Positions 7,812-63,884 of a stretch of DNA of 64,000 bases are shown in pieces (the first letter of the stretch is position 1; every line of letters begins with the position of its first letter). The notes below the pieces were generated by a model. It was not told where the DNA came from, did no database searches, and saw only the letters and a program-made list of their open reading frames with translations. Source of the DNA: Bryum argenteum. Its lineage: Eukaryota > Streptophyta > Bryopsida > Bryales > Bryaceae. Where the stretch lies: contig CM073330.1 in assembly GCA_037043015.1 (NCBI GenBank), positions 4,985,263-5,049,262 on the forward strand, read 5' to 3'. The translations under genes and the position numbers were made by a program.

Positions 7812-8418
7812 CCCCTAAATGGTTTGACTCATTTGTAGTAAAATGAACACATCCTCAAAAGCATTGTCATAGGTGGAGGTAAAAGTGTGTTATTCAAATC
7901 TCAACCGTACAATCTTGTCGTAGACATATTGAACATCATGTGGGTCAAATTTTGAGTCATGAGGCTTCATAGATTGCAAGATCATAATGTATTAATACTC
8001 AAAAATGATCACATAATTTCGTCATTTTCACTTTAAAGTGAAAATGCTACCATTAGACTTATTGCAATGAAAAAATCACCAATTAGAATGTTGTTCACCT
8101 TCATCTCAGTAGCATTCTTGAACAAAAAAAAACCATGAGAAAAATTTCTTTGTACAAATTATGGCCCTGCAATGGTGAAAACTGCCCTAAATTTTACAAA
8201 GGAAAAAATGTCTAAAACTAGGCTGCTGTCACTGAAATGCATGCCATTAATTCATACTTCATTGTATGGGTCTGAGATTTTTATGACATGAACTAGACTT
8301 GATTTGGGACCCAACCCAAGTGATTTCGTCCAAAACGGAGTCCGGATGAAGAAGTTAAGGCTCTCCAAAGTTTCTGTCATCCAGAATGTCGATTTTCGAC
8401 ATTCGGCCCGCTTAAGGG
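7812..8418 (+). mobile_element. TTAA-flanked piggyBac-like element, long subtype
   Basis: The element is bordered by TTAA at 7808-7811 and 8419-8422, begins CCCC and ends GGG. Near the right end is a perfect hairpin: GAATGTCGA (8384-8392), loop TTT, TCGACATTC (8396-8404), 14 nt from the terminal GGG. Related copies are recognisable at 37560-37945 (reverse) and 60310-61494. No transposase frame is present. The piggyBac assignment rests on TTAA target sites plus CCC...GGG termini. Confidence 0.7.
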
Positions 8419-8422
8419 TTAA

Positions 8423-9255
8423 ATCGCAAAAACTATGAAGCAAGTCTCGAATTCATATTGTCATATGTACCACATTAACTAGGTTACACAAACACCAACC
8501 ATATAAATGACCCTCCATTTATCTACAAGTCACTAAAGTAATTATCTAAGGTCTTGATATTGTGCCTGTCCCATGGGAAACTCATATACGAACCAACTGG
8601 AAAAGCTTATTATTGGAGGCAAAATTTCATAGTATTTTTCAATTGACTACCCTAGTTGCCAAGATACATGATCATTGAAGATATTTCACATGATTTTGGT
8701 TTCCAACTCATTCTTTGATTTTGATATTCAAATAAAAAATAATATTCCTTTGTTGCATGAGCAGTAAAACAATAAGTGCTTCATAAGAGATTACTTGCAC
8801 TCTAATTAGAAGATTTAAAATTGTATGTAACTAATGTGGAAAACATTTTCTTGAGCTTCTTAACTTAATGTGGTACTTCATCTAAGGCGACCAAATCCTC
8901 GTAAAGCCATCTTGGCTTCCAAAAATCTCTAGAAGTTAAGTGCAATATTTTGAAGTTTGATATGTAGCCAATAAGTTTCCCTTGTACAACTAAGATTATA
9001 TATTTTACGATAATTTAGAGTATTTGTATTCATTAATCCTAATTATTAAACTTGCAACTACTTCAATCGTAAATGAAAATCTGATTATTAAGAGCTTGAA
9101 TACTCACATCCAAAAACAATTCCTTCAGAGTCGTAAGTAACTTCACCCATTGTTGTACACATGACTTCATCATTCTTTCACAAAAGCAAGTGTAGAAAAT
9201 TTTATTAGAAAATTAAAACCTTTTGTATTAGTCAAATGCGCACAAAGTTATTATC
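8423..9255. other. AT-rich intergenic DNA
   Basis: No open frame, repeat or RNA gene could be supported here. It sits between two TTAA-flanked elements. Confidence 0.5.
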
Positions 9256-9259
9256 TTAA

Positions 9260-9493
9260 CCCTTAGACGTCAGACCCAACCCGAGGGGTTGGGTTTTTTT
9301 TTGAGAGAATCTTGCTCATAACTTACACTCCATTATACCAAATGGAATTTTTAGAATTCCAAACTGAGCACCTTCAAGAGATCTATACTTTCTTAAAATA
9401 GAGCTCAAGCAAATTTAAAATAGAATAATGCTAAAAATGAAGTTTAAAAGAGATTTTGGGTGTGGTATCAGGAAAGCATATGACGTTTAAGGG
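9260..9493 (-). mobile_element. TTAA-flanked piggyBac-like MITE, 234 bp
   Basis: TTAA target duplications are at 9256-9259 and 9494-9497. The ends CCCTTAGACGTCA and the complement of CCCTTAAACGTCA give 13-bp TIRs with one mismatch. A perfect hairpin lies 14 nt inside the left end: ACCCAACCC (9274-9282), loop GAG, GGGTTGGGT (9286-9294), followed by a T run. It looks like a bacterial terminator, but in this context it is the family's subterminal hairpin. Non-coding. The strand given places the hairpin end last, as in the other members. Confidence 0.85.
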
Positions 9494-9927
9494 TTAAGGG
9501 AGAAAGTGACTTGTGGCTATGTGTAAGTATTCCAAAGTGGTTTGGACCTCTCAAATTCTCATACAAGAATTGAATACTAACACCCTTTTGTTGAATCTGA
9601 CTTGCACGCACATATAGATTTCATCACCGTTTTTTTAGAGTTTATTGTTTTTTTGGGTTTTTAATGCCATAAATTATTAAAATACAGAGTTAAAAGCAAT
9701 TTAAAGTTAATTGCAATTTAATTGCATATAATCTTGAAAGATTTCAATTTTTATTGATTGAAAATTTGAGGATTTCTATATTTTAAAAATGATTAATTAT
9801 TTGTTGTAGAAATCTGGTAGAGGCTACGACATACTATGGATGGAATATCTCCACATCTGGATGAGCCATTGGGATGGCTTTGGGTACCCAAGCATGAGTA
9901 AGAGACTTGGGCATATACACCATGAAT

Positions 9928-10134
9928 ATCTCATAAAAACAATTGTCAAGTGTGTAGTAACGTCTCACTTCTGATTAATTCATCAACACAAAGTAATACA
10001 ATTGCAATTATGTCATGATGACTTACTATGATGTATCATCTCATAAAAACAATCATCACCTATGTAGTAACGTCTCGCTTCCAATCATTTCAATAACAAG
10101 AATTAATACAATTGCAATTCTGTCATGATGACTT
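9928..10134 (+). repeat. ~110-bp direct repeat, two units
   Basis: Units begin at 9928 and 10038 with ATCTCATAAAAACAAT. They share GTAGTAACGTCTC, AATACAATTGCAATT and GTCATGATGACTTA at matching offsets, with scattered substitutions. Between 9498 and 9927 I see only AT-rich non-coding DNA. Confidence 0.8.
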
Positions 10135-10205
10135 ATAGTAAGTGGCTCATAAACTGCTCACTTTTCAAATTCGCAAGCTCATTGGTAAGTGGCCAAGTGA
10201 ATTAA

Positions 10206-61494: not shown

Positions 61495-63376
61495 TTGATT
61501 GCAAAAAAATAGACTCGGTATAAATATTGGAAAAGTTATTTTGGTACTGGAAACGTTTTGCGGGTTTTTAAGTTCGGACACAATAATCTCTCTTGTAAAT
61601 ACTAATGTGGATTTGTAAAGGAAGCTCTATAGTAGCTCTCAAACAAAGACTTGTCTTATTTACGAAAAATCCCAAAACTAGTGATAGTTTATTTATGATA
61701 GGTTATTATCATGAGGAGGAGCGTATCATTTTTTTGAGAATGTAGAAACGTAAAAATTTGACCAATTTTGTTGAGAAAGAAATTCATTTATACATATTTT
61801 GAGTTATTGTGTCCTTTGATCGCTTAAGGTATTCTATCTTTGTTTTTAATTATTGTAAAATTTTCAGAAATCCTTATCAACAAAGCTATGACTAATTGAA
61901 GTGACAAGTAACCTTCCATAATACAACTTTAAATGAAACAATCATTATAAGAGTGCATTTTTTTTTTGTAATATTATTTGCTATAGTTGAGTTTGCTTAC
62001 ATATGAGATTGAAATTTTTGTAAGAATCCTAATATTGTTGTTATAATTGATATTTTAACTTATGGATATGATATAAAGAGAAATATTTGCACGCACTATA
62101 ATATTGTTCTCTTCGAATACAAAAAGTTATCATCTTGTAGCTAATTAAATCACAAAAACTCTTTTGGCTTGTGGGTTTAGATGCTAAAATGTATTCTATA
62201 CTAAAATAATTTTATCTTTAATTTCATCATAAAGTAAGAAGCATCAAGTGCAAAATTTAACATCTACAAAAAGAATTGTATTCGTTCAGAGATTTGGTAC
62301 AACATTATGGCGAAGTTGGATCATCTAAAGAAGCATAGTTTTCAGGTATGAGCAAACTTACCTTGTGACTTCTATAACCTCAAAAACCCTAAATTTTTAT
62401 TGTCAAATATTTCCACAAACAACACACAAAGTATATGATTCTTTAATAAATTTCAATAACAAAATTCTATTTTCCCATTATATATTAGAAAAATTATACA
62501 AAATCGCACAACTTTTTTGAGATTTTCTTTCTTTTCAAGAGTGGTTTGAATCTTTATAACATCCTAACTAATCAAAAGTATCAATTTGCATATAATTGCG
62601 TCAATGTATATTGGGTTTGTACTATAATTACTTGATATTACAATCATTTGGCAGTGGAGAAATGGTTTTACTACATTACAAGGGAAACGCGATATGAAGC
62701 TTTGGCTTTGCAATGCACACACCAATCCAATTATTCTATATGTGATGAATACAATCTTCAAAACTATGAGAAATTTATGTCAAATTTCCTCAATATCTAG
62801 GTAAACTTGCAAAAAAATACATATAGTGTGAAGTAATATATCATAGTTTACGCCACATTTTCCACATTAATACTTTGGAGGATTGATAATGCAGGAATAG
62901 GACATGCTTTTGGATTTTGTCTTACTTTAATTTGGAATGTCTTTATGTTTACGGGAATCATCTTATTATATATCCAATATGGCTCAAGAAACAACTTCAT
63001 GCTCTTGACTGTGAAAGCATGTTACATCTTTATGAGTTTATCTCTAAGTCTTCCTAAAACCTCCATGCCCGTTGAAGACTCATTGAAGTGCCTTCATATA
63101 TTTATATAGGAAATAAAGTTGTATGTCTTCTCACATATATAATCTTCTTGTTTCACAATAAGATCATCTTTCTCATTTAGTATTGGTTTGATATATTTAT
63201 GTTTGGATATGTAGATCTCTACGAACCGATTTCTATGATTTAATAGTAAACTAAATAATAAAAATTACATTTCACTTAACTCAAGATTGTGGAAATTTTG
63301 CAGCCCCAGCTCCCCTTGTTGTTATTGGAAGTTTTTTGAAAGTTTTGAGGAGTCATGTCCACATGGTATGTCTCAA
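61495..63376. other. Very AT-rich intergenic DNA
   Basis: No coding exon, tRNA or bounded element is supported in this 1.9-kb stretch. Confidence 0.5.
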
Positions 63377-63378
63377 TT

Positions 63379-63380
<2 letters not shown>

Positions 63381-63443
<63 letters not shown>
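63381..63443. repeat. (AT)31 microsatellite
   Basis: An uninterrupted AT dinucleotide run of about 63 bp, likely variable in length between individuals and assemblies. Confidence 0.98.
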
Positions 63444-63447
<4 letters not shown>

Positions 63448-63624
63448 CAATGTTAGTTCTTAAATCTATATATAGCCTCAATGTAATCTAAGTATCGTTA
63501 TGTAATCAACACTCAAACCAATTGTTAAGTGAATAGATCATATAATTGTAGTAAAACCTAGTGGAATATCTATTAAAAGTATAGTCATATTATGAGGTCT
63601 CAACTAACTTGTTGTCAATCTTAA

Positions 63625-63884
63625 CCCCTAAAGATCCTTGATACAAAATTGTCTAAATTATCACAAAGGACCCTCTTCTACTTCAGGCCCGAAAAAACTC
63701 AATCTAAGCATTAATTAGAAGATCCAACCGTAGGATCTTGAAGTGAACTTGACCCTATACTCATATGTCAAATTTGAACCGTTAATTTTTTTCCGATTTT
63801 GAGATTATAAAGGTCAAAGTTGGCTGACTTTTTTTCCTGCGGAAACCCCAAAAAGCCATTTCGGCTTTCTTGGATCTTTAAGGG
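63625..63884 (+). mobile_element. TTAA-flanked piggyBac-like MITE, 260 bp
   Basis: TTAA is at 63621-63624 and 63885-63888. It begins CCCCTAAAGATCC and ends with the near-complement GGATCTTTAAGGG. The right hairpin is AAAGCC (63852-63857), 5-nt loop ATTTC with one mismatched pair flanking TTT, GGCTTT (63863-63868), 16 nt from the end. It is the same subtype and same length as the inner element at 52848-53107. Confidence 0.92.

Follow-up and report, generated by a model that had tools for sequence, protein, structure and literature searches.

What holds a short inverted repeat in place near one end of a transposon while its sequence changes from element to element? The question is raised by a 64,000-nucleotide stretch of the genome of the moss Bryum argenteum (assembly GCA_037043015.1, contig CM073330.1, positions 4,985,263 to 5,049,262; hereafter the window), in which six TTAA-flanked elements with CCC/GGG tips carry such a repeat. 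A reading of this DNA made from the letters alone (the sequence-only reading) had described six hairpins at a nearly constant distance from the terminal GGG, and all six stems and loops were found in the sequence where it had placed them. The constancy proved tighter than claimed: counting from the element tip, that is, from the base adjoining TTAA, the axis of symmetry falls exactly at base pair (bp) 25 in 6/6 elements. Stem, loop and distance to GGG are 9/3/11, 9/3/11, 7/3/13, 7/3/13, 10/3/10 and 6/5/13, such that arm length (6-10 bp) and distance compensate and the axis alone is constant. We conclude that the repeat is very probably a palindromic site at the left end (LE) of the transposon for a dimer of the transposase cysteine-rich domain (CRD), in double-stranded, two-fold symmetric DNA; the earlier suggestion of a transposase recognition element is thus accepted, as a putative CRD-dimer site.

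The elements themselves are non-autonomous piggyBac-like transposons, that is, miniature inverted-repeat transposable elements (MITEs) mobilized by piggyBac transposases whose genes lie at other places in the genome. A first look across this genome (258.8 Mb, 25 contigs) gave 2,154 candidates for family A, 3,037 for B, 6,371 for E1, 505 for the 9260 family and 36 for the 10206 family, numbers that are not copy counts, about 36-40 being scored per family. TTAA lies on both sides of 30/30 fetched copies of A, in 30 different flanks, and of 25/30 fetched copies of B by a strict pattern, the others holding a nested A or small changes. In the window, A sits in a TTAA within the terminal repeat of B (TTAACCC-TTAA-ACGCCC), splitting B; removing A together with one TTAA restores the continuous B sequence, as in 25/29 other B copies, and this empty site therefore displays directly the exact TTAA duplication that is the piggyBac signature. 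The flanks and the empty site bear out the piggyBac-like affinity that the sequence-only reading had proposed. Chains of the form TTAACCCTTAACCC, in which elements insert into TTAA formed by each other's tips, were also seen (L070, L072 and window 52837-52847).

The terminal inverted repeats of the window elements are short and begin with CCC; that of E1 (7812-8418) is very short (CCCYTAA), its two ends having just a few terminal bases in common. Judging from its copies, of which 40/40 scored span positions 1-615/616 of the query at 98-100% identity, the E1 family is a recent burst. Element 10206-11016 is an internally deleted version of longer elements: in other copies its two parts match flanks that lie ~5-6 kb from each other, and both parts also match DNA beside transposase genes.

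Table 1. Transposable elements of the window and their left-end palindromes (window coordinates).
Feature	Coordinates	Strand	Flanking TTAA	LE	Palindrome	Axis	Remark
MITE E1	7812..8418	-	7808-7811, 8419-8422	right			
LE palindrome of E1	8384..8404				GAATGTCGA-TTT-TCGACATTC	8394 (bp 25)	
MITE 9260-9493	9260..9493	+	9256-9259, 9494-9497	left			
LE palindrome of MITE 9260-9493	9274..9294				ACCCAACCC-GAG-GGGTTGGGT	9284 (bp 25)	
piggyBac-like element	10206..11016	-	10202-10205, mutated TTGA 11017-11020	right			internally deleted
LE palindrome of element 10206-11016	10984..11000				CGGCCCT-CTC-AGGGCCG	10992 (bp 25)	
Older homologous element	11756..12020	+	11752-11755, 12021-12024	left			palindrome decayed, 3/7 pairs
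MITE A	52848..53107	-	52844-52847, 53108-53111	right			nested in B
LE palindrome of A	53075..53091				AAACCCG-TTT-CGGGTTT	53083 (bp 25)	
MITE B	52841..53466	-	52837-52840, 53467-53470	right			~363 bp if uninterrupted
LE palindrome of B	53431..53453				AAGGTGACCC-CCC-GGGTCACCTT	53442 (bp 25)	
MITE 63625-63884	63625..63884	-	63621-63624, 63885-63888	right			
LE palindrome of MITE 63625-63884	63852..63868				AAAGCC-ATTTC-GGCTTT	63860 (bp 25)	

The same axis stands out in a wider sample of the genome. In a main set of 195 TTAACCC sites, grouped into 101 clusters and including autonomous ends and ends picked for their similarity to element 10206, axis 25.0 has a mean complementarity of 0.448, against 0.265 when shuffled (z = 10.6), and 21/101 clusters have at least 6/7 pairs there; the runner-up axes are 25.5 (z 4.3), 47.0 (z 3.3) and 23.5 (z 3.0), with 0 clusters at 6/7. 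In a set restricted to flanking DNA, from which the window and the window's own locus (L012, L042) were excluded, 9/59 TTAACCC clusters reach at least 6/7 pairs at axis 25.0, compared with 2 at the best other axis among the 63; counting L012 and L042, the figure is 10/61. A perfect repeat of at least 6 bp lies just upstream of 15/86 GGGTTAA sites in these flanks and of 4/87 control-word sites (22/105 and 5/106 with the window included). Within the window, such a repeat is found at 7/24 GGGTTAA/GGGTTGA sites; six of these are those already described, and the one at site 7814 (stem 6, loop 6) has its centre away from bp 25. The exact 17-mer GGGCGTTTAAGGGTTAA occurs at 1,632 + 1,666 places, and its reversed control at 0. 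Sixty stretches were taken from the first 100 of these 3,298 places, family B pairs 352-353 bp apart being excluded except L131; 34/65 ends have at least 5/7 pairs at axis 25, while the next axis, 40.0, has 16, and after clustering the count is 7/17 compared with at most 2 at any other axis.

The arms covary. We chose the LE ends of one superfamily by a motif at bp 40-75, ignoring the stem, which yielded 83 ends and 55 distinct rows. Watson-Crick pairs fill 75% of cells at axis 25.0; at the other twelve axes between 22 and 28 they fill 19-41%. Each of the outer pairs 17-20/30-33 occurs in three or four Watson-Crick types: 17/33 is C-G 23, G-C 10 and A-T 4; 18/32 is A-T 22, T-A 12, G-C 9 and C-G 2; 19/31 is G-C 21, A-T 11, T-A 5 and C-G 3; and 20/30 is G-C 27, A-T 16 and C-G 6, whereas the inner pairs 21-23 are almost entirely C-G. 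Seven of the 55 rows (L050, L009, L070, the second tip of L072, L147, L143 and L034), being shifted by an indel, second tips or not LE ends, were dropped before shuffling, though the 75% figure still includes them. The 23 distinct outer-arm combinations are 80% paired, compared with a shuffle mean of 37% and maximum of 65%, and 0/10,000 shuffles reach 80%; outer arms are perfect in 7/23 combinations, which 4/10,000 shuffles equalled. Given that the rows are related, the shuffles overstate significance, and the slid axes, which retain this relatedness, are the better control. A second superfamily set chosen by a distal motif, mostly family A with 15 distinct rows, was left out of these statistics. 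The central claim of the sequence-only reading, that the structure is kept at one end while its sequence changes, is upheld by the axis, the covariation and the scores of the two ends.

Those scores are strongly asymmetric. The opposite end of five window elements has 1-3/7 pairs at the bp-25 axis, compared with 6-7/7 at the palindrome end, and each of the 25 B copies scored has one end with 6-7 pairs and the other with 0-2 (loci unoriented). No palindrome of the right end (RE) was detected: the 73 clusters of opposite ends have no prominent axis (z at most 3.3). Nor was a second palindrome prominent at bp 18-97 of 22 LE clusters; weak axis peaks at about bp 46-47, with z of 2.9 and 3.3, did not hold up. 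At RE bp 28-36, autonomous L003 and MITE B (L045) both have GGGCAGCCC, with its axis at bp 32; it is not general and is perhaps an RE-side site in these two related families. In a subfamily of A (L029, L033, L035, L036, L038 and L040), the LE centre is AAT in place of AAA, and the RE stretch is altered, CAAATTGGTC replacing CAAAACGGTC. Since this RE stretch resembles one LE half-site, the A-family RE may keep a single half-site.

Autonomous elements carry the same kind of end. Of 776 DDE_Tnp_1_7 candidates in the genome, 116 were scored, all above the cut-off and 23 of them with an internal stop. We searched six loci for ends by terminal repeat and TTAA, and matched four more through 10206-type copies and the 17-mer. 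Ends were found for 5/6 autonomous loci. The end that bears the palindrome is upstream of the transposase gene, and this defines the LE. At axis 25, the LE of L002, L003, L006 and L011 has 6, 6, 7 and 5 of 7 pairs (RE 0, 0, 0 and 1), and that of L004, L005, L007, L009 and L010 has 6, 6, 4, 4 and 6 (RE 3, 2, 1, 2 and 0). As a forward test, we picked, unseen, a 401-bp window ~2.65-3.05 kb upstream of each of five additional transposase genes; the tip was present in three of them, scoring 6, 6 and 7 of 7, and the L167 window holds a second TTAA-CC site that scores 1. Window MITE 63625-63884 has, at bp 5-36, the same LE as that found upstream of the G000:C3:9246451 transposase, and the LE of C2:14514601 carries the AAT-centred palindrome of the A subfamily. 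An autonomous partner with DDE_Tnp_1_7 and the same ends was thereby found for 10206-11016, 63625-63884 and A, the three for which it was sought; the partner that the sequence-only reading had called for, a DDE transposase gene with this kind of end, is present in the genome.

The transposases point to the CRD as the putative reader of the palindrome. The L003 protein matches the Trichoplusia ni transposase (6x67) with E 2e-29 in an alignment that does not run through the CRD, while its residues 425-895 align with piggyBat (9c0f) 102-574 through the CRD (E 7.7e-24); the L010 protein gives E 1e-31 with piggyBat and 1.6e-19, outside the CRD, with T. ni. A CRD-type Cys/His pattern is present in 12/13 translated transposase loci, disrupted in L002 and L006, and was not found in L004. 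Judged by the L003-piggyBat alignment and the matching of residue numbers, one CRD stretch would be the counterpart of the piggyBat loop that reads the palindrome, and it falls into three groups: KKVRQWYC, with palindrome CATGCCC (L003; similarly L002, L006 and L011); KKKQ(S/N)R(M/Y)C, with GGGG arms (L009 and L010); and ...PHxxC, with AAAGCC or AAACCC (L005, L007, L171, L172 and L173). This grouping fits co-evolution of CRD and palindrome, which is confounded with descent.

The sequence-only reading knew of no such feature in described elements, but subterminal palindromes have been published for T. ni piggyBac, piggyBat and human MER75/MER85/Looper. In T. ni piggyBac, the core binds the first 16 bp and two CRDs bind bp 17-33 of one LE, where the minor groove narrows around a point near bp 25 (PMC7351741). 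The moss elements resemble its LE35 (IFP2) in TTAA target, CCC tips, a DDE_Tnp_1_7 transposase and a palindrome that spans bp 17-33 and is centred on bp 25, although T. ni piggyBac has an identical 19-bp palindrome further inward on its RE, with no RE counterpart found here, and a CRD of a different Cys/His type. In piggyBat, from Myotis lucifugus, the CRDs, of a fold unrelated to that of piggyBac, bind a palindrome at bp 19-30 of the LE only (PMC11707139), and a bend is centred around bp 25 (PMC13405395, preprint). The moss elements share with it the LE-only palindrome, absent from the RE, an alignable CRD and the position near bp 25, which is a bend there and the axis here, whereas the LE of piggyBat has three copies of its motif and we find a single LE palindrome. 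A CRD-swapped transposase functioned with a correspondingly altered end plus a partner (PMC13405395, preprint). Human MER75, MER75B, MER85 and Looper likewise have inner inverted repeats near their ends, at one end only in MER75B, the accessible text describing no covariation series or fixed axis (PMC12324416). Coral CMITE elements share the TTAA duplication and short CCC tips and form several families in which the two terminal repeats have changed in parallel, no subterminal palindrome being named in the parts available (PMC2872659).

The position shared with these known systems, together with the one-endedness and the free arm sequence of the moss elements, makes a CRD-dimer site the best reading of the palindrome. 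To the element boundaries, axis, covariation, one-endedness and presence and kind of transposase, which are observed directly, it would add CRD binding, bending and co-evolution of CRD and site. In such a mechanism, the catalytic core would hold the first ~16 bp of the element and set the position of the CRD dimer, fixing the axis, and the same domain would read both half-sites, keeping the arms complementary; a new arm sequence would require changes in the two half-sites and in the CRD alike, with selection acting on duplex half-sites rather than on a fold.

Several observations weigh against this reading. The search by terminal repeat and TTAA found no ends for L008; the LE of L007 and L009 score just 4/7 and that of L011 5/7, L007 being better at 25.5; two of the five forward-test windows are without a tip; and CRD and palindrome match at clade level only (about three clades). 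The arms are also longer and more perfect than in T. ni piggyBac, with a 3-bp centre, which would fit a short hairpin as well. Finally, among the stem mismatches (T-G 6, G-T 5, A-A 5, T-C 4, C-C 4, C-T 3, others 1-2 each), G-T and T-G total 11 compared with 2 for A-C and C-A, a leaning towards a single-stranded fold in rows that are few and related.

These last points favour the alternative in which the repeat acts as a hairpin or cruciform, in single-stranded DNA or RNA, recognised by its shape, an idea also raised for PGBD5 (PMC12324416). Recognition by shape, however, needs no axis at an exact base pair, and here arm length ranges over 6-10 bp about a constant axis; moreover, CRD dimers are seen on a duplex palindrome at this position in the piggyBac and piggyBat structures, and the mismatch counts are small. 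We therefore consider a hairpin improbable, and the folded DNA or RNA structure of the sequence-only reading, like its hairpin regenerated at each transposition, is unsupported. A single-bp axis held constant at bp 25, where piggyBac and piggyBat CRD dimers bind, argues instead for a palindromic duplex protein site.

Template switching and repair are known mutational processes at imperfect palindromes. Copying of one arm onto the other in quasi-palindromes, with no selection, could speed concerted changes of the arms, but as the whole explanation we regard it as very improbable: it leaves unexplained why unrelated families share the one axis, why the repeat is confined to one end and why it matches autonomous partners, and intermediates changed in one arm are common (5/48 rows with CAAG and CATG, 3 with CATG and CATT), as stepwise change predicts. 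That the elements are Helitron-like, with a rolling-circle-type 3' hairpin near the end, is barely credible: a hairpin at one end only, lying 10-13 nt inside the terminal GGG and of family-specific sequence, led us to consider such ends first, and a Helitron_like_N protein does lie within the window, but Helitrons by definition make no target-site duplication, insert between A and T and end in CTRR, whereas the TTAA at both ends, duplicated at the A-in-B insertion, led to their rejection, and the terminal inverted repeats and ends common to piggyBac transposase genes agree with this.

Among other features of the window, Helitron fragments occupy 13601-16131, with Helitron_like_N (PF14214, E 2.3e-45) at 14501-15151 and adjoining open reading frames (ORFs). 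A TPX2-domain protein (PF06886, E 6.5e-21) is encoded at 4849-5442, in keeping with a plant host. Two similar ORFs (MKLIEEYE...) on the minus strand, at 40802-41305 and 48744-49220, ~8 kb apart, are perhaps a tandem gene pair.

What is known, then, is this kind of site; what appears new is a large natural covariation series in one genome with matching autonomous partners, none having been found in the literature searched. No plant covariation series and no statement of the axis as a constant appeared in the accessible parts of that literature, a search outside which most subscription papers fell. We judge the chances about even that transposases and operators form a naturally paired series in this one genome, bp 17-20/30-33 having been rewritten repeatedly by paired changes within one lineage of ends, with the bp-25 axis and the region of catalytic contact kept. 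If true, element lineages would have separated into sets no longer recognised by the transposases of their relatives, and the series could be read as a CRD recognition code. The LE operator would lie at the same base pair in moss as in moth and bat, though the CRD folds of piggyBac and piggyBat are reportedly unrelated. For annotation, the axis at bp 25 offers a simple test of LE versus RE in piggyBac-like MITEs, and the moss genome provides a ready set of natural operator variants, some beside their transposases, from which rules of CRD recognition and mutually blind transposon pairs may be drawn.

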